Position numbers and translations under genes: made by a program. Source: Deltaproteobacteria bacterium (GTDB lineage Bacteria > Desulfobacterota > Desulfobacteria > Desulfobacterales > JAFDCJ01). Taken from it: a stretch of 39,053 nt of DNA. Each line of letters opens with the position of its first letter. The stretch's first letter is position 1. A model generated the notes under the pieces. The model saw nothing but the letters and a program-made list of their open reading frames with translations. It ran no database searches and was not told the origin of the DNA. The DNA is taken from positions 1 through 39,053 of the forward strand of contig JAFDCJ010000356.1 of NCBI GenBank assembly GCA_019312835.1, written 5' to 3'. This document shows, one piece after another, positions 7,437 through 38,938 of the stretch.

Positions 7437-7461
7437 ACCTTCTCCTCAAACATGAACTTTA

Positions 7462-7645
7462 TGGCAGGTCTTCTGACTTCCCCGCCCTTTTAGCTGCCTT
7501 CCCATCACGATCAATCGCGACAGTGGCAGACGACTGCTAAAAGAGTTCCCCTTGCGTTCCATTCTGAAGGGGCGGGGTCACAGCGGCGGGTCCGTACCGG
7601 ATTCAAACCGGTTTCCCTATTATCCCCTTAGGGCGCCAAAAAGCA
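7462..7645 (-). ncRNA. Cobalamin riboswitch upstream of cobT
   Basis: On the minus strand the sequence shows the conserved cobalamin-aptamer parts in order: an AATAGGGAA element, GAATCCGGTACGGACCCGCCGCTGTGA, a CCACTGT segment, the GGGAAGGC stem, and GTCAGAAGACCTGCC closing the core. The GCCGCTGTGA junction (7578-7587) and the 3' AGACCTGCC are diagnostic. It controls cobT through the terminator at 7395-7436. Its 3' half is nearly identical to that of the divergent riboswitch at 7771. Confidence 0.95.
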
Positions 7646-7665
7646 TCACGATAAATTTTGCAGAT

Positions 7666-7732: not shown

Positions 7733-7761
7733 TTGACACATTCAACCATTTTATCTATTAA
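7733..7761 (+). promoter_or_regulatory. Predicted sigma-70 promoter for the cobamide operon
   Basis: TTGACA (7733-7738), a 17-base spacer and TATTAA (7756-7761) lie about ten bases before the second riboswitch. This is the likely promoter of the rightward operon. Confidence 0.65.
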
Positions 7762-7770
7762 GAGCGAGTT

Positions 7771-7945
7771 AAGGTGCGTAAGCTTAATAGGGAATCCCGT
7801 GGGAATCGGGAGTGGTCCCGCCGCTGTAACCCCGGTCTTGCACTGAAACGTGTAAAGAAACCCTTTTAGCCTCGGTTAGCCACTGTTTCGATTGATCGTG
7901 ATGGGAAGGTTGCTAAAAGGGCGGGGAAGCCAGAAGACCTGCCTT
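7771..7945 (+). ncRNA. Cobalamin riboswitch upstream of btuC
   Basis: Conserved aptamer elements follow in order: AAGGTGCG, TTAATAGGGAA, GGAATCGGGAGTGGTCCCGCCGCTGTAA, GCCACTG, GTGATGGGAAGG and GCCAGAAGACCTGCC. It precedes an intrinsic terminator and the btuC start, so high cobalamin should shut the transport and synthesis operon. Confidence 0.96.
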
Positions 7946-8017
7946 GGCGTGTTGCTGTTTTTCTGCGGGCAACGGAATGGGTAGCAGCAATCAAAGGGTT
8001 AAGAAAACTGGGTGCAG

Positions 8018-12445: not shown

Positions 12446-13059
12446 AACCAGCTGAAATTGAAAAATTAAGCTTTCAGATCATCGATCAGGAGGCGGGACG
12501 TCATCATTTTACCAGTGCGCAATGGTCCATTGTCAGGCGAATGATTCACACCTCGGCGGATTTTGAATACAAAGAAACGGTTCGTTTTCATCAAGATGCC
12601 ATAACATCGGGGCTGGATGCCATTCGTAAAGGCAAGAATATTATAACCGATACCAACATGGCCCGGGTCGGCATCCGCGAATATGAACTGTCCCAATTCG
12701 GTGCCACGGTCACGTGTTATATGAATGATCCCCAGGTTCACCGCACCGCAACAGCCACCGGCGTTACCCGCGCGAAAGTTGCCGTGGAGATTGCGGCGGC
12801 CGACATGGCGGACGGAATATATGTCGTCGGCAATGCACCGACGGCCTTGCTGGCCTTGATCGATCTGATTCATGAACACAAAGCAAAGCCGGCCTTGATT
12901 ATCGGATTGCCGGTGGGTTTTGTAAACGCTGCTGAGTCCAAAGCAGCGCTGATGGAGCTGGATTGTCCTTTCATATCCAATGTGGGACGCAAGGGAGGAT
13001 CCAATGTTGCCGCCAGCGTTGTCAATGCCCTGGCAATTATGGCGGCCGGGAATGCTTAG
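12442..13059 (+). CDS. cbiC: Cobalt-precorrin-8 methylmutase
   Basis: 205 residues, starting at the ATG inside the cbiA stop (ATGA overlap). CbiC moves the methyl group from C11 to C12 to give cobyrinic acid. Family features are RRMIHTSADFEY with the catalytic His, ITDTNMARVGI, and VGNAPTALLALIDLI followed by GLPVGFVNAAESKAAL. The length is standard. A 115-base gap with no clear feature leads to cbiL. Confidence 0.96.
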   Translation: MKPAEIEKLSFQIIDQEAGRHHFTSAQWSIVRRMIHTSADFEYKETVRFHQDAITSGLDAIRKGKNIITDTNMARVGIREYELSQFGATVTCYMNDPQVHRTATATGVTRAKVAVEIAAADMADGIYVVGNAPTALLALIDLIHEHKAKPALIIGLPVGFVNAAESKAALMELDCPFISNVGRKGGSNVAASVVNALAIMAAGNA

Positions 13060-13174
13060 TTCTCGGGGACATTTCGATGGGATCGTTAATGTGGACTGAG
13101 TATCGGGCACCGAAAATCAAGTCCCTCGTATCGAGAGAGCAGGGTTAAATTTTAACGAAGAATTAGAGGACACC

Positions 13175-13972
13175 ATGACTCAAAAAACCGGAATCTTATA
13201 TGGCATCGGCGTTGGACCGGGGGACCCGGATCTGATTACCCTGAAAGCGGTAAAGATCTTGCGCCAGGTTGACATTGTGTTTGCAGCAGCCTCCACAAAA
13301 AATGACCACAGCCTGGCGGTTAACATCGCCAGGGAACATATTCCCGACCGTGCGCCGGTGGTCCGGCTCAAGTTCCCCATGACCAGGGATAAATCCGAAA
13401 CCCGCAAGGCCTGGAAAGCCCACTCTCAAACCATTATCGCCGAGCTCGAGAAGGGCAGAAACGTCGCCTTTTTGACCCTGGGTGATTCCATGACCTATTC
13501 GACCTTTGGATACATCCTGAAATATGTGCAAACCATCGCCCCCCATCTCGAAGTGCGGACAGTGCCCGGCATAACCTCGTACCAGGCCGCCGCTGCCCGC
13601 TTGAATACACCCCTGGTGGAAGGCGAGGAGTCGCTGATGGTGGTTTCTGGCGCCCAAGGGGGCCATCGCCTCCGGGAATTGCACGCTAAACCGGAAAACG
13701 TGGTCTTTTTGAAGGCCTATCGCAACGTCACCGACATTAAAGCGGCCATCGATGAAACCGGTAACTATCCCTGTTGCGTGGGCGTCAAAAGCTGCGGACA
13801 CCCAGATGAGGAGATTATTAATGATATAGAAGAATTAGGACGACGAAAGCCCGATTACTGGACCCTGATCTTAACCAAGCATGCCAACAACAATGGCACG
13901 ATGAAGGATGCGTCAACGACCACCCGTAAAGAGGGTGGCTTGGATCCGCGGCCAGAGGCCGGGAAGACATAA
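13175..13972 (+). CDS. cbiL: Cobalt-factor II / precorrin-2 C20-methyltransferase
   Basis: 265 residues of the SAM-dependent tetrapyrrole methylase fold. The start GILYGIGVGPGDPDLITLKAVKIL carries the GxGxGDP loop, TLGDSMTYSTFGYI is the second conserved block, and VPGITSYQAAAARLNTPLVEG the third. It adds the C20 methyl that is later lost on ring contraction. About 25 residues beyond the usual end (after LTKHANNN) are low in family character and read as a species-specific tail. The AGAGGACACC ribosome site supports this ATG. Confidence 0.95.
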   Translation: MTQKTGILYGIGVGPGDPDLITLKAVKILRQVDIVFAAASTKNDHSLAVNIAREHIPDRAPVVRLKFPMTRDKSETRKAWKAHSQTIIAELEKGRNVAFLTLGDSMTYSTFGYILKYVQTIAPHLEVRTVPGITSYQAAAARLNTPLVEGEESLMVVSGAQGGHRLRELHAKPENVVFLKAYRNVTDIKAAIDETGNYPCCVGVKSCGHPDEEIINDIEELGRRKPDYWTLILTKHANNNGTMKDASTTTRKEGGLDPRPEAGKT

Positions 13973-27984: not shown

Positions 27985-28335
27985 CTAGTTTTTATCGATA
28001 AATCCATTCTCGATGAGAACTTCTTCAATAGCCTCCTCCAATTCAAATTTGGGGGGAATCGCATCAAAAAATAGTTCTCCGTTGATAAATAAGGAAGGAA
28101 CGGGAGCCAGACGGAGATGCTTGTAAACGCCTTCTTCCCCGAACAGAGAGCTGGAAAGGTCCAAAAATCGTTTTTTACCGTCGCCCTTCAAGAATTCGAC
28201 ACGATGGTATTCAACATATTGGTCGTATTTCGGAATTACTTCGCGGACGGCTTCATCCATGTAAAGGCACGGCAGGCAATAATCCGCTTTATACATCACT
28301 TCAATCAATATTTTCTGGGGGCCAGTAGCTGTCAT
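27985..28335 (-). CDS. Thioredoxin-like protein with CxPC motif
   Basis: 116 residues from the ATG at 28335 (the frame is open further to 28449, but that part looks non-coding). The order is a first strand KILIEVMYKADY, then Cys20-LP-Cys23, a helix MDEAVREVIPKYDQ, a strand EYHRVEFLKGDG, and the cis-Pro segment LAPVPSLFINGELFFDAIPP typical of thioredoxin folds. It is the Cys paralogue directly upstream of the UxxC selenoprotein and shares its CVYM/CLYM and VPS.I.GEL.FD signatures. A redox role is expected; no substrate can be named. It diverges from the B12-binding gene across 161 bases. Confidence 0.75.
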   Translation of the reverse strand: MTATGPQKILIEVMYKADYCLPCLYMDEAVREVIPKYDQYVEYHRVEFLKGDGKKRFLDLSSSLFGEEGVYKHLRLAPVPSLFINGELFFDAIPPKFELEEAIEEVLIENGFIDKN

Positions 28336-28496
28336 ATCAAACCGAATACCATAGTAAATGTGAAATTTCAACGGGATTCGGGGGGGTGATCTTGTCTGGC
28401 TCAGCAAAAATGCCGATTTTGACGACCGCAATCGATTGAACATGGGCATACCACCAAGTTGACATTTTTCTCGCTTTTAAATAGAAATGAACGGTT

Positions 28497-33735: not shown

Positions 33736-34245
33736 ATGGCAGTCATAGAAAAATTTCTTGGCCGGTGCGTCAACATTCCCGGTGATCGAAAATATTATGC
33801 CAAGCAGGGCCTGTGGGCCAAAGCGCAAGGTGATCGTGTTGTCTTTGGCTTCACGGAGCCAGCCCTGGTTTTGGCCGGTGGGGTGAATGGCCTGGACTGG
33901 CTGGTTGAGGAAAACGCTTCGGTTCGACAAGGACAGGACGTTGTATTCGTCATTACGGGCAAAATCCAATACATCGACACCCCCCTCCAGGGAACCATCT
34001 CTTTTAATAGGGGCCTGAAACCAGACCTCTCGCCCGTGGTAGAAGACCCCTATGACAAAGGGTGGCTGTTTAGAATAAAACCGGATGCCGGCATGACGGA
34101 GACAGACCTCACGGCAATGGACGCCCGAGGCTACACCGAGAGTTTAAAGAGCAGCGAGGGATGTAAAAACCCAGAAGGGTTAAAAGGTGGTGTTTCGGGA
34201 ATTTGCAAGGCGGTTTATTCAGGTATCCGCGATCAAAATATTTAA
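33736..34245 (+). CDS. GcvH-like (lipoyl-domain fold) protein lacking the lipoyl-lysine position
   Basis: 169 residues, with a perfect GAAGGAGGAGAG ribosome site. The fold follows glycine cleavage H protein: WAKAQGDRVVFGFTEPAL, VKxG-like VRQGQDVV, and EDPYDKGWLFRIKPDAG match strongly. Where GcvH has the lipoylated Lys (ESVKAxSD), this protein has Gly75 followed by Lys76 (VITGKIQYIDTP). A C-terminal tail of about 50 residues with two Cys is extra. It may no longer carry lipoate or carry it one residue away. It is next to a thioredoxin-like gene and far from any visible glycine-cleavage gene. Confidence 0.75.
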   Translation: MAVIEKFLGRCVNIPGDRKYYAKQGLWAKAQGDRVVFGFTEPALVLAGGVNGLDWLVEENASVRQGQDVVFVITGKIQYIDTPLQGTISFNRGLKPDLSPVVEDPYDKGWLFRIKPDAGMTETDLTAMDARGYTESLKSSEGCKNPEGLKGGVSGICKAVYSGIRDQNI

Positions 34246-34281: not shown

Positions 34282-34581
34282 ATGCAGCAATACCAAAATC
34301 CAGTTCTGGTGGAGATCGTAGCCAAAAAGAAAGGCTGTATGCTTTGCGACCTGGCAATCGGAATCCTGGAAGAAGTATCTCCCGAGTTTGAAAACGGAAT
34401 ATTGACATGGGAAGTGGTGGATGTAAGTGACCGCGACGGCCTGCGCCGTTTTGATGAATTAACAAATGTGTGTGGACGACGGCCGGCGGTGCCATCTATT
34501 GTGATCAACAACAGGATCGCTTTCGATAACATTCCCGATATGGAAGCACTGGCAGAAGCTGTGAGATCGGCATCCACATGA
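34282..34581 (+). CDS. Thioredoxin-like protein with CxxC, Cys homologue of the selenoprotein
   Basis: 99 residues. The active site is KKKG-Cys19-ML-Cys22-DLAIG, followed by SPEFENGILTWEVVDVSDRDG and the cis-Pro block RRPAVPSIVINNRIAFDNIP. It aligns end to end with the UxxC selenoprotein at 27657-27959, with Cys19 opposite Sec17. It follows the GcvH-like gene by 36 bases on the same strand and converges on the TrxR-like gene after 21 bases. Confidence 0.8.
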   Translation: MQQYQNPVLVEIVAKKKGCMLCDLAIGILEEVSPEFENGILTWEVVDVSDRDGLRRFDELTNVCGRRPAVPSIVINNRIAFDNIPDMEALAEAVRSAST

Positions 34582-34602: not shown

Positions 34603-35532
34603 CTAACTGGAGGAGATGCTTGTTTCGATGAATTCGGCTGCATATTTGGCGGCCCTGGCACCATCGGCGCAGGCCGTCAGCACCTGCCACATGTCGGTCT
34701 CCCGCACATCACCGGCTGCGAAAAGACCGGGAAAAGATGTCATCAGCTTTTGATCCGCCTTCAGGTAGCCGTCTCCATTTTTTTCCACCTCAAGATCCAG
34801 CATTTTGGTGTTCGGTCGCCATCCGATGGCCAGAAATATCCCGTCAACTGCCAGGTGCCTGTCCGTATCCGCCGTGGTGGACACCACAACGCCTTCAACG
34901 ACCCCGGATCCCCGATAACCCTTGATTTCCGTATTCAAAAGCTGTTCAATATTTTTTTGTTTTCCAATTAGATTTTGATGGGCCGCATCCATCGCGAGTT
35001 TCTCGCTGCGGCATATCAGGAGGACCTTTTTGGCAATACGGGCCAAAGAGACAGCATGCTGGGCCGCTGTGTTATCGTTACCCACAACGGCCAGGACTGC
35101 ATCTTTGCCTCTGTACAGGGGCCCATCACAAATCGAACAAAAATGTACGCCGACGAGGTTGGCATTGGCTACCGCCAGCCTTTTCGGTAGGCGACCGGTG
35201 GCGACGACGGCGCAGGAAGCCGCATACTGCTGGCCATCGACGTCAATCCCGATAAAAAGGCCCGCCTCGTGACGCAGTCTATCTAGGCGCGTCATCGTAA
35301 AAAAGGCGCCTTCGCGCTGGGCCTGCTGGAATGCCATCGTACCGAATTGGGTACCGGATATTTCTTCCAGATAACCGGGAAAATTAGCCAGATGCTGGAT
35401 CATATAGGTGCTGCCGCCCGGGATATCACCAAATACGATGACGTTTAATCCCAATCGCTGGCCGTACAAGGCCGCTGTCAATCCGGCAGGACCCGATCCC
35501 AGAATCATGAGATCATATGTAGTTTCGGACAT
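34603..35532 (-). CDS. Thioredoxin-reductase-like flavoprotein
   Basis: 309 residues from the ATG at 35532, with AAGGACGG ahead and 12 bases after the CobW stop. The FAD loop DLMILGSGPAGLTAALYGQR, the redox-active HFCSICDGP (Cys132, Cys135) and the FAD-closing GLFAAGDVRETD are complete. The second Rossmann motif reads VVGNDNTAAQHA rather than GGGNSAxE, and the NADPH-specificity HRRxxxR is replaced by ICRSEKLAM, so NADPH is probably not the electron donor; ferredoxin, F420 or another carrier is possible. It should reduce the small thioredoxin-like proteins around it. Last gene of the set that begins with the selenomethyltransferase. Confidence 0.85.
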   Translation of the reverse strand: MSETTYDLMILGSGPAGLTAALYGQRLGLNVIVFGDIPGGSTYMIQHLANFPGYLEEISGTQFGTMAFQQAQREGAFFTMTRLDRLRHEAGLFIGIDVDGQQYAASCAVVATGRLPKRLAVANANLVGVHFCSICDGPLYRGKDAVLAVVGNDNTAAQHAVSLARIAKKVLLICRSEKLAMDAAHQNLIGKQKNIEQLLNTEIKGYRGSGVVEGVVVSTTADTDRHLAVDGIFLAIGWRPNTKMLDLEVEKNGDGYLKADQKLMTSFPGLFAAGDVRETDMWQVLTACADGARAAKYAAEFIETSISSS

Positions 35533-35543
35533 CTTTGCCGTCC

Positions 35544-36575
35544 TTATTGCGAATAGGGTTGAAACACCCCTCTGCTTGTCCAATCACCTGTACGGGTTGC
35601 CTCTTCGATTCTTTCCATGGATTCAGGCGGCCCGATAAAAACGACAATATTGCGGTGCTTGATGCGCGCCTTCGGCACACCGGATTTTTCAATGGCCCAA
35701 TCGCCCATGACATAACTGAACAAATATATTTCACCTTTTTCTTCCACAAACCCCTTGGCTCTGACAACCGAAGGGGGTAGGGCCTCGGCCATGGCTCTGA
35801 CCTGCTGCAGGTCGTCTCCGTTCCAGGTATAGGTGACGGACATGAGGATATCCGGTGGGGTTATTTCAAGATCGGGGCTATCCAGGAGGTCATCAATGAA
35901 TTGGTCAAGTGCTTCCTCCGAAAGGACCGGCACTTGTGCGGTTTTGGATTCCGGCATCTCGGAATCGGATAACACCTGTTCCCCTAAGTCAAAAAAATCC
36001 GCCAACGGGATATCGGCATAGGTGGTTTCAAAAAAGGAGGGGTCGGGGTGAAACTGCCGAATGATGCTTTTCGTTTCTTCAATGAGCTCCGGCGCGGCGC
36101 TATCAATCTTATTAATGATAAATACGGTGGAAGACGCAATCTGTTTTTCCAACGATGCGAAGGCGCCGTAAGCATCTAAAAAGTGAGCCGCATCGATTAC
36201 GCAAAACTGCTCCCTGAAGCGAAATCGATCGTTGAAAATAGGCAGTTTCAAATCTTTTTTTAAATCGGAGGGGTTGGCAACACCCGTTGATTCAATCAGC
36301 ATGACATCAGGTTTTACTTTGCTGTTGAGTTCGTAGAGACCTTTTATAAAATCTGTTTTAACGCAGACGCAAAAGATGGAACCTTTGCTGATTTCCATCA
36401 TATCGATGTCATCTCCCTCAACCAAAGTGCCATCCACGCCGACTTCACCGAATTCGTTAACCAGCAGGGTCAGTTTTTTATCTTTGGGGAAGCGCTTAAT
36501 AATGCGATTCAGCAAAGTGGTTTTGCCACTGCCTAAAAAGCCGGTAATCAGATATACGTGAGTGCAATCGGACAT
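35544..36575 (-). CDS. COG0523 (CobW-like) GTPase, second copy
   Basis: 343 residues. P-loop YLITGFLGSGKTTLLNRII at residues 8-26, VNEFGEVGVDG as switch region, ESTGVANPSD as G3 and INKIDSAAPE as G4 are all canonical. The metal motif reads FCVCVK (Cys69-V-Cys71-V), lacking the last Cys of CxCC. The C-terminal half is long, acidic between residues 200 and 240, then ends with VVRAKGFVEEKGEIYLFSYVMGDW as in CobW_C domains. Starts 3 bases after the Trx-like stop. As a putative zinc chaperone in the same set it could load the zinc-dependent methyltransferase; that is inference. Confidence 0.9.
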   Translation of the reverse strand: MSDCTHVYLITGFLGSGKTTLLNRIIKRFPKDKKLTLLVNEFGEVGVDGTLVEGDDIDMMEISKGSIFCVCVKTDFIKGLYELNSKVKPDVMLIESTGVANPSDLKKDLKLPIFNDRFRFREQFCVIDAAHFLDAYGAFASLEKQIASSTVFIINKIDSAAPELIEETKSIIRQFHPDPSFFETTYADIPLADFFDLGEQVLSDSEMPESKTAQVPVLSEEALDQFIDDLLDSPDLEITPPDILMSVTYTWNGDDLQQVRAMAEALPPSVVRAKGFVEEKGEIYLFSYVMGDWAIEKSGVPKARIKHRNIVVFIGPPESMERIEEATRTGDWTSRGVFQPYSQ

Positions 36576-36578
36576 GCC

Positions 36579-36824
36579 TTACAGCTTCTCCTCGATCTTT
36601 GCCTTGATTTGTTTGGGGCTGAGCACTTTGCCGGTTGAAATGACTTCGCCATCAATTACAAGCCCCGGTGTCATAAACACCCCCATTTTGGCAAAATAGT
36701 TGACGTCTCCGATTTTTTCGATATCAATCGCTGCGGGAGACGCCAGGTCAGCCACCGCATGTTGGGTGTTTTCATACAGTTGATCACAGCGCTTGCACCC
36801 GGTTCCTAAGATTTCAACTTTCAT
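36579..36824 (-). CDS. Small thioredoxin-fold protein (Thioredoxin_3 / MTH895-like)
   Basis: 81 residues: MKVEILGTG-Cys10-KR-Cys13-DQLYENTQ, IDIEKIGDVNYFAKMGVFMTPGLVIDGEVISTGKVLS, and a KIEEKL end (longer stretch quoted by its landmarks: GVFMTPGLVIDGE holds the cis-Pro). This is the textbook form of the family. GGGAGG lies 6 bases ahead of the ATG, just after a small ggcgg/ccgcc hairpin (36837-36851). It sits between the zinc-ribbon gene and the CobW gene. Confidence 0.9.
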   Translation of the reverse strand: MKVEILGTGCKRCDQLYENTQHAVADLASPAAIDIEKIGDVNYFAKMGVFMTPGLVIDGEVISTGKVLSPKQIKAKIEEKL

Positions 36825-36863: not shown

Positions 36864-37169
36864 TTATTCATAAAGGGGTATCGCATTTGCCTTATCTTGG
36901 AGCAGTAGAAGATTCTGGCAAAATTTGCAAACGCCCAGAGATCCTTTGGATCGGGTAAGTTGATCCCAGAGGTTAAAATAGATTGCCCTGTTGTTCGAGT
37001 CCATCTTCTCGGTCAAAGCATCCGGTTCTTCCAGTTCCCGGATGCGATCGGATTTTCCGCAATAGGGGCACAGGATGCCAAACAATGCCACGTCTGTTTG
37101 CGGCAGGCCGTGCTGCAAGACAAACGTTTTCAGTTCTTCAACCGCTTCATTCAATTCCAATATAAACAC
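36864..37169 (-). CDS. Four-Cys zinc-ribbon-like protein of unknown function
   Basis: 101 residues with two CxxC pairs: Cys34-PY-Cys37-GKSD and Cys81-KF-Cys84-QNLL, 43 residues apart, which could bind one zinc or an Fe-S cluster. The N-terminal 30 residues form a helix and a strand (EAVEELKTFVLQHGL). No family recognised. It lies after the Trx-like gene (37243-37644), from which a terminator-like hairpin separates it. Confidence 0.6.
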   Translation of the reverse strand: MFILELNEAVEELKTFVLQHGLPQTDVALFGILCPYCGKSDRIRELEEPDALTEKMDSNNRAIYFNLWDQLTRSKGSLGVCKFCQNLLLLQDKANAIPLYE

Positions 37170-37242: not shown

Positions 37243-37644
37243 TCATTCGACTTTGGAATCCGTGCGCGTGGCCATACCGGCGCCTGCTTTTTTCAGGTTT
37301 TCCTGAATTTTATCAAATTCAAAGCCGTGGTCTCGAAGTGACACAATGCGTTCCCGCATGGCATCGGAAGGGGCCCGCTTGGCCATTTCATCGATCAGTT
37401 CCTCATACTGTGGAATGATACTTTCAAATACCAGGTCTTTTTCAATGCAGATGGTCGGCAGGACCTTACCCTGAAGCTCAATAAACTTACCGATGCCATC
37501 TTTGTTTTTGATCGACCATTCCTTGTATACGATCATATCCTGAACATCAGCCGGCAATGCTGCGATGGACTCCATCATGTAGCCGCAAGCGGCGCACTGC
37601 ACACTGTCCAGTGTCAGAACGTCAATGGTAATTTTATCTGCCAT
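37243..37644 (-). CDS. Thioredoxin-like protein following the selenomethyltransferase
   Basis: 133 residues. Strand KITIDVLTLDS, then Cys17-AA-Cys20-GYMMESI, strand IVYKEWSIKNKDG and LPTICIEKDLVFESIIP, with a cis-Pro-like Leu-Pro, follow the thioredoxin order seen in the other small proteins here. About 45 charged residues beyond the domain (residues 90-133, MRERIVSLRDHGFEFDK...) are an extension. AGGAGG precedes the ATG. It starts 27 bases after the methyltransferase stop and is the closest partner of that selenoprotein. Confidence 0.72.
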   Translation of the reverse strand: MADKITIDVLTLDSVQCAACGYMMESIAALPADVQDMIVYKEWSIKNKDGIGKFIELQGKVLPTICIEKDLVFESIIPQYEELIDEMAKRAPSDAMRERIVSLRDHGFEFDKIQENLKKAGAGMATRTDSKVE

Positions 37645-37671
37645 GATCCGAATCCTCCTTTCTGTAGTAGT

Positions 37672-38706
37672 TTACCAAGATTCCGGATACTTGGCATAAT
37701 ATTGTTCAAACCAGTCTCGGACTTCGATCGCTTGATCCATATGTTCCACCGGAACATCGTAAGGCATATCTCAGCCAGGGGCGAAGGTATAACCTTCTTG
37801 CCCGCCTGCGGCCAGGCTTACGATCGCATCCTCTCTGGGAGACAGCAACCCAAGGCTCAAGGCCAGGGTCAGCTTCAAGTTGCCGCCAAAGCCCACCCCG
37901 TGTTTGCGCGCCAGGTCGCGCACAAAGAGCATGTTGAGTTGTTCATCAATGGCAAAGCCGTGGGTGCCGATCTTACAGACATCTTCAAGGACCTTGGTGC
38001 AGTCGCCACAAATAAAGAATGATGAAGTCGCGCCGGCATCGTGAATCACTTTGATGGCCGGTTGTGAATTGGGAGTGACAAACTTCTGAAAGGTTTCGGA
38101 TTTGATCTGAGACGCCACCGGATCAACGATGGCGATGATCTCGCAGCCCATGTCGGCATAAAACCCTGCTGCTGCCGCACCAACTTCACCGGCAAATTTG
38201 ATAACATCGGCCGCAAAATCGGGATTTTTGTAAACATCGGTGAAGATGCGCACCCCGGCCAGATGGGAAGCCAGCGTCAAGGGGCCGCAAAAAAGTCCCA
38301 TCATGACACAATCGAGTTCATCCAGTTGGGGCTTGGCAATTTTGGCCGCCTCAAAAATTACCGGCCAGCGACCGGCGTCTTTGGTGGGAATGGACAGCCC
38401 GGCATCGGCCGGCGTCTTATCGGAGCAGGGATGGGTGGTTACGGAAGGTACGTTGTCGGGCCACCATTTCAGCTCACAACCGACGGAATTCGCTTCAACA
38501 GAAAGATCAAAAAGTAGCGGAATTCCGTCAGCCTTGTATCTTTTGGCGGCATTGACGACGCCCTTCGCTAATAGTTCAGGATCTTGGAGCATTTTATCCG
38601 ACGGTTCATTGATCAAGAAAGCGCAGTGAACCCCTGCGTATGGCACCCATGGGGGTTTTTCCGTTCTCTTACCCCGATAGGCATCGATCAACAGTTGTTT
38701 GGCCAT
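37672..38706 (-). CDS. Selenocysteine-containing MtaA/UroD-family corrinoid methyltransferase
   Basis: 344 residues when the in-frame TGA at 37771-37773 is read as Sec312. The first 311 residues are a UroD/MtaA-type TIM barrel (WVPYAGVHCAFLINEPSDKM, LFCGPLTLASHLAG, FFICGDCTKVL). The read-through adds DMPYDVPVEHMDQAIE and ends ESW; this restores the family C-terminus, normally APGC-D-x-P-x-x-(T/V)P. The Cys there is a zinc ligand in MtaA and MtbA, so Sec replaces a zinc ligand. The usual His of HxC is Phe231 (FIC233). Such enzymes move methyl groups between corrinoid proteins and thiols. AGGAG precedes the ATG. The next genes are Trx-like, zinc ribbon, Trx-like, CobW and TrxR-like. Confidence 0.85.
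37741..37757 (-). promoter_or_regulatory. Candidate bacterial SECIS hairpin (methyltransferase)
   Basis: On the minus strand atgttcc-ggt-ggaacat forms a perfect 7-bp stem with a GGU loop. It begins 13 bases after the TGA, and the loop lies about 21 bases after it, close to the geometry and GGU-type loop of the E. coli fdhF SECIS. The bases also encode protein, as bacterial SECIS elements do. Confidence 0.8.
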
Positions 38707-38938
38707 TGGAAATCTCCTTTCTTTTTGGTTTAGGGGTCACGTTTCTACACAGAATTGTATAAACGTTTCTTTCATCACCTCCTTCCATACTTGGTCTGAT
38801 TGCCGCTGTCTGGTAAAAATATCAGACGGCCCCAGTTGCGCACTCTCTGCAGTGATCTTGAACGATAGAAAACGAATACTAAACATCAAACTATACTGAA
38901 ATTGTCAAGATTCATTTTCATTTGTAAACCCCAGTGAC
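38707..38938 (-). promoter_or_regulatory. Leader region of the selenomethyltransferase gene
   Basis: Holds a strong minus-strand AAGGAGGTG directly before an ATG (38775) that opens a 12-codon ORF ending in TGA at 38737-38739, in frame with the methyltransferase ATG. A TTGACA box at 38908-38903 (minus) has only a weak -10. A gtctg/cagac hairpin lies at about 38808-38826. No other gene seen. Confidence 0.3.

Follow-up and report, generated by a model that had tools for sequence, protein, structure and literature searches.

The window analyzed here, the 39,053 nucleotides of contig JAFDCJ010000356.1 (assembly GCA_019312835.1, from a Deltaproteobacteria bacterium of the Desulfobacterales), carries near its end a gene for a protein of the URO-D superfamily that resembles the methyltransferase MtaA, in which an in-frame TGA codon stands where MtaA has a zinc-binding Cys. 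Judged by comparison of homologues, this UGA is almost certainly translated as selenocysteine (Sec) by way of SelA, SelB, SelC and SelD, with a hairpin that begins 13 nt after the codon directing the insertion. The first-pass annotation had placed Sec at the zinc-Cys position of MtaA, and this proposal is strongly supported by the presence of TGA in 56/56 homologues, by orthologues with Cys at the same position, by a hairpin under selection, and by Sec machinery. The elements of the gene are as follows.

37672..38706, reverse strand: predicted Sec-containing MtaA-like/URO-D gene, from the ATG at 38706 to the TAA at 37672-37674, 344 amino acids with Sec (U) at 312 (translation, Pfam, PDB, and an AlphaFold2 (AF2) model)
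37771..37773, reverse strand: in-frame UGA, almost certainly read as selenocysteine 312 (APG-U-D) (homologue codon comparison)
37741..37757, reverse strand: hairpin resembling a selenocysteine insertion sequence (SECIS), 7 bp with a GGU loop, nt 17-33 from the UGA (family-wide pairing and position)
38713..38720, reverse strand: Shine-Dalgarno AAAGGAGA of the Sec gene, before the ATG at 38706 (sequence)
37654..37663, reverse strand: Shine-Dalgarno AGAAAGGAGG of the downstream gene, only beyond the TAA (sequence)

Conservation of the in-frame TGA

The TGA directly follows TFAPG, and the same frame then continues through 32 sense codons (DMPYDVPVEHMDQAIEVRDWFEQYYAKYPESW) to the TAA, exactly as first described, with the ribosome site of the next gene appearing only after that TAA. 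Among the other frames listed for the window, which were not tested one by one, none was a convincing candidate for TGA read-through. To place the codon in context, homologues were gathered from relatives, from the phylum and from GTDB genomes, yielding 56 distinct sequences with 65-93% identity. All 56 have TGA at the identical codon (APG-U-D), with the frame continuing beyond it. The carriers, among them the isolates Desulfospira joergensenii (L080) and Desulfotomaculum copahuensis, belong to the Desulfobacterota/'Deltaproteobacteria' and the Firmicutes; the source genome itself has a second copy (contig C432, locus L034) that is 67% identical and has the same TGA. The expectation that Cys would be found at this position was borne out by an orthologue with 66% identity (L114), which has TGT there, and by two distant homologues (L115 and L116), which have TGC.

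Nucleotide differences after the TGA, counted in 23 close homologues, numbered 528, 695, and 2551 at codon positions 1, 2, and 3, and the last barrel helix of the AF2 model (residues 320-336) is built with high confidence from the post-TGA part. Because the differences lie mainly at third positions and the tail supplies this helix, both the comparison and the model indicate that the sequence beyond the TGA is protein-coding. If the TGA were instead a normal stop, the gene would end at residue 311 and the tail would be an untranslated relic. This has in its favor that selB was not found in the source assembly and that nine homologues also end at a final TGA, but it would leave unaccounted for a conserved tail with third-position bias that can be aligned to the end of MtaA and folds into the barrel, as well as Cys orthologues with sense codons throughout. 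Moreover, none of 57 close homologues stops at this site with TAA or TAG, so that the natural termination there which would have spoken for a true end of the gene is not seen in the family, and we regard a normal stop as very improbable. A sequencing error, or a general reassignment of UGA (to Trp or Gly), is more improbable still; nothing beyond the bare TGA suggests either, the TGA recurs in 56 distinct sequences, the majority from separate assemblies, and UGA evidently remains a stop, since the downstream gene for a thioredoxin-like CAAC protein and nine family members terminate at TGA, in a genome that has a tRNA-Sec with a UCA anticodon. True stop, error and general reassignment are thus practically excluded.

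The downstream hairpin

Counted from the U of the UGA, the hairpin (AUGUUCC-GGU-GGAACAU) spans nt 17-33, and the seven base pairs, the GGU loop and the distance of 13 bases given in the first-pass annotation are exact. Taken alone, the hairpin of the window is not exceptional when compared with dinucleotide shuffles (z of -0.5 to -1.3), and comparative tests were therefore used. All seven pairs are present in 42 of the 56 homologues, whereas recoding each gene synonymously according to its own codon usage would give an expected 0.98. All 55 rows with Val at codon 6 use GTT, a codon that makes up 22% of the Val codons upstream of the TGA in the same genes, and codon 8 ends in G in 54/56 (upstream frequency 0.33) although its amino acid varies among V, A, S, and L. 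The loop base G24 is present in 53/56 homologues, and two-sided changes were found at three pairs (17:33 to G-C, 18:32 to C-G, and 20:30 to C-G). In a small clade that includes Firmicutes, a hairpin keeps this location but pairs in a different register (nt 17-35), and the Cys forms, the L114 orthologue included, are without the hairpin. The homologues are related and cannot be counted as independent events, but two phyla are represented among them, and the pattern indicates that the position and pairing of the hairpin are maintained by selection on synonymous codons. The proposed match to bacterial SECIS geometry is upheld by the short distance, the G that opens the loop, and the pairing under selection, as judged against general knowledge of bacterial SECIS elements; an Rfam scan of the gene (4227 families) returned no SECIS match.

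Selenocysteine machinery

The source genome contains a tRNA-Sec (75.4 bits, UCA anticodon), selA (605 bits) and selD (353 bits; L118, C503:3099-4016), the last of which itself has one in-frame TGA, like other Sec-type SelD. Accordingly, the part of the earlier expectation that concerned selA, selD, and tRNA-Sec was confirmed. The part that concerned selB was not, since neither the family model nor a SelB query from the same genus detected the gene in the source metagenome-assembled genome (MAG), and no selB adjoins selA. The best match to the selB model was EF-Tu, which was rejected, and the same-genus query led to the same translation GTPases. Taken literally, a genome lacking selB is one of the outcomes that the first-pass annotation had named as speaking against Sec. 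Because selA, selD, and tRNA-Sec are present, selB scores above cut-off in 49/58 relatives, same-genus genomes included, and the MAG is 93% complete in 558 contigs, the absence of selB is likely to be an assembly gap. A tRNA-Sec was also detected in 13/17 further carriers of the Sec gene, in 2/3 carriers of the Cys forms, and in 10/10 carriers reached through loci, Firmicutes included. Three genomes (G448, G449, and G450, the genomes of L090, L097, and L102) each have a second, lower-scoring tRNA-Sec match of 53-55 bits, above the Rfam cut-off.

Fold and ligand site

The protein matches the URO-D domain (PF01208) at 152.9 bits, compared to a cut-off of 23.9 (E 1.5e-44). Methanosarcina MtaA (4ay7) is the only solved relative found with the single sequence (E 6e-24), in an alignment that reaches the end of MtaA and places the TGA on the Cys of its APG-Cys, and it is also the nearest solved structure in a profile search (E 4.6e-59). 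The AF2 model (mean predicted local distance difference test score 94.2) superimposes on MtaA 4ay8 with a template modeling score of 0.88 at 25% identity in the fold alignment, and by both profile and fold MtaA ranks ahead of the uroporphyrinogen decarboxylases. The curated family models are less generous, with 130.7 bits vs. a cut-off of 235.4 for MtaA/CmuA (TIGR01463), and scores below the MtaA and MtbA cut-offs for NF040654 (101.7 vs. 400) and NF041608 (87 vs. 600).

In S/Se-methyltransferases of the URO-D superfamily, zinc is bound at a His-Cys-Cys site (PMC10418091). In the Sec family, the first ligand position, normally His, is Phe in 55/56 homologues and Leu in the remaining one, and Phe is found there in all three Cys forms (L114, L115, and L116) as well, while Cys233 and residue 312 are invariant. 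The site is thus Phe231-Cys233-Sec312 and not the His-Cys-Cys triad of a canonical zinc site; the canonical URO-D neighbors encoded in the operons carry L-H-I-C-G and PGCD. Consequently, the claim that Sec is a zinc ligand stands only in part: Sec312 is homologous to the third (Cys) ligand of MtaA, but the His ligand has been replaced by Phe, and zinc chemistry at Sec312 is something that we only infer. Because of this replacement by Phe or Leu, and a score below the MtaA/CmuA cut-off, the sequence marks the protein as MtaA-like and not an MtaA, or at most as a modified MtaA.

Operon and neighboring genes

The Sec gene heads a conserved operon and is followed on the same strand by genes that recur among its relatives.

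37243..37644, reverse strand: thioredoxin-like CAAC protein, 133 amino acids, directly downstream (weak NF047660 match)
36864..37169, reverse strand: Cys-rich 101-amino-acid protein (CPYC), a conserved neighbor (no Pfam or NCBIfam match)
36579..36824, reverse strand: Thioredoxin_3 / MTH895-ArsE-type thioredoxin (Pfam/NCBIfam)
35544..36575, reverse strand: CobW-family metallochaperone GTPase (Pfam cobW, 6.6e-39)
34603..35583, reverse strand: thioredoxin-reductase-like flavoprotein (NCBIfam TRX_reduct 9.9e-74, below cut-off)

We compared 35 loci, for which the neighbor counts are lower bounds because contig ends cut many flanks. The CAAC gene lies immediately downstream of the Sec gene in at least 34/35. 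The CobW GTPase was found in at least 30 loci and the thioredoxin-reductase-like flavoprotein in 13; a corrinoid protein in 22, a RACo/AcsV-type activase in 21, and MtrH in 11; a canonical HIC/PGC MtaA-type URO-D protein in 15, DUF6951 in 18, and DUF2284 in 16. Thioredoxins with RQUxAC or HUIPC motifs are encoded in at least 15 and 14 of the loci, respectively, while the window's own thioredoxin-like neighbors have Cys, not Sec. The Cys homologues L115 and L116 each end in a C-terminal domain that is related by homology to the CAAC protein (phmmer E 2.2e-14 for L115 and 1.3e-10 for L116), and this fusion is a strong sign that the Sec protein and the CAAC protein are functional partners.

Several further features of these regions were recorded. 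One or two proteins per operon are thioredoxin-like and UxxC-like, with an RQ-UGA-xAC motif whose in-frame TGA is aligned to Cys17 in the CAAC protein of the window (L080:10164-10433; L090:12649-12909 and 12936-13193; L102:12994-13254 and 13305-13565; L097:7639-7908). Since they score 31-44 bits, far under the HUIPC selenoprotein cut-off of 105, they are perhaps another unlisted selenoprotein family. Within the window, 34282-34581 (forward strand) and 27985-28449 (reverse strand) encode further Cys-type relatives of the HUIPC selenoprotein family, below cut-off, and 33736-34245 (forward strand) encodes a GcvH-related protein (NF045810, 251 bits). GcvH-like genes also lie by the Sec gene in L097 and L103, together with apparent lipoate-synthesis genes in L097, and the operon of L090 includes an aquaporin-family (MIP) channel fused to a thioredoxin_3 domain (L090:9780-10907). 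Two divergent cobalamin riboswitches of the window, at 7446-7655 (reverse strand, 86.5 bits) and 7755-7960 (forward strand, 83.5 bits), sit between the cobalamin transport and biosynthesis genes that occupy most of it.

Proposed function

We consider it likely, as a whole, that the gene encodes a Sec-containing MtaA-like protein that acts in a corrinoid methyl-transfer system, with the CAAC protein as its partner and Sec312 and Cys233 in a metal site. The gene context makes participation in a corrinoid methyl-transfer system itself probable, and the protein is probably an S/Se-methyltransferase-like enzyme. In such a system, the corrinoid protein, re-reduced by the RACo/AcsV-type activase, would carry the methyl group, which MtrH/MtgA could transfer to tetrahydrofolate, and the Sec protein would transfer methyl between the corrinoid and either a thiol or a selenol. 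The near-obligate CAAC partner would probably bear or supply the thiol. The chances appear to us about even that Sec312 and Cys233 form a soft metal (Zn) site by which the thiol or selenol is activated; the lost His ligand would then be replaced by another ligand, for which the invariant residues His148, His92, and Glu71 are candidates, or by the substrate. The more specific version, in which the Sec312 selenolate coordinates the catalytic zinc, or another soft metal, in a corrinoid-dependent methyltransferase, and the thioredoxin-like, partly Sec-containing partners carry methyl or thiol groups, is put forward tentatively.

The family-model scores, the Phe at the His position in Sec and Cys forms alike, and the missing selB all weigh against this interpretation, as do two properties of the neighborhood: the corrinoid genes are visible only in relatives, from which they had to be deduced because the window's contig ends 347 bp upstream of the Sec gene, and the many thioredoxin-like neighbors are also compatible with a redox role. 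The main competing explanation builds on the latter, and accepts UGA as Sec while denying that Sec is a metal ligand. The zinc triad would have been lost and the URO-D barrel kept, and Cys233 and Sec312 would form a selenenylsulfide/thiol redox pair, or a methyl-accepting nucleophile, reduced by the CAAC partner and thioredoxin reductase. The replacement of the triad His by Phe, the thioredoxin-like partner that is near-obligate and in some homologues fused, the nearby Sec thioredoxins and a thioredoxin reductase, and the redox function ascribed to the majority of listed selenoproteins (PMC13188914) agree with this explanation. Nevertheless, the corrinoid, activase, and MtrH neighbors suggest methyl transfer, and residue 312 corresponds to the zinc Cys of MtaA and Cys233 to the other ligand Cys, both invariant. 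To our knowledge, corrinoid proteins of the URO-D superfamily are not known as redox enzymes, which also counts against it. We judge the redox or nucleophile role to be a serious but less likely possibility, and prefer a methyltransferase-like Sec protein.

Novelty and implications

A 2026 inventory lists 119 prokaryotic selenoprotein families and subfamilies (PMC13188914), and no URO-D/MtaA member is in its full table, which includes the families cited to Haft and Tolstoy 2025 and Haft and Gwadz 2023. Neither is a URO-D/MtaA selenoprotein found in PMC12013277, PMC9312934, PMC5029168, or PMC2398784, and NCBIfam (June 2026) has no matching selenoprotein model. Because it is missing from that list, the other surveys and the NCBIfam models, this URO-D/MtaA-like group, common to sulfate reducers and some Firmicutes, is apparently an unlisted, new selenoprotein family. 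Its members are likely truncated in standard annotation, and therefore both the selenoprotein and its operon would be hidden in many anaerobe genomes. In marine sulfate reducers, among them one related to the Olavius symbiont Delta 1, the operon suggests an uncharacterized pathway of methyl-sulfur or methyl-selenium metabolism. Sec-metal chemistry is known for Ni, Mo, and W (PMC13188914 and general knowledge); if Sec is a metal ligand here, it would be extended to a zinc-type methyltransferase, and would reveal what selenium contributes to methyl transfer onto thiols. The Cys orthologue L114 forms a natural Sec/Cys pair with the Sec forms.

Comparison with known systems

The Sec family resembles MtaA (4ay7/4ay8) in its URO-D barrel, in the second and third ligand positions (Cys233 and residue 312), and in clustering with a corrinoid protein and an activase, here in the loci of relatives. 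In contrast, MtaA has Cys as third and His as first ligand where the Sec family has Sec and Phe, and the Sec family, unlike MtaA, occurs in sulfate reducers and Firmicutes and is linked to thioredoxin-like proteins. Among the Mlp proteins, Mlp2 of type 1 mlp gene clusters acts on selenide (Kountz and Balskus 2023, PMC10418091). Mlp1, Mlp2, and Mlp3 keep His-Cys-Cys, some Mlp1 excepted, and the text of that study reports no Sec in any Mlp, while the Sec family has Phe-Cys-Sec with Sec at 312; it also differs in its MtrH and thioredoxin-like partner, in a comparison made by motif and gene context. The HUIPC thioredoxin-like selenoprotein (NF047660), which in the L080 operon scores 131 bits vs. 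the cut-off of 105, recurs as a neighbor in the operon and likewise carries a UGA of its own, but has a thioredoxin fold and not a URO-D fold. Finally, HgcA, SaoL/SaoC, and other organometal-linked selenoproteins (PMC13188914) likewise have Sec in or near corrinoid or organometallic chemistry, but they belong to different protein families, and their Sec is not at the URO-D ligand position.
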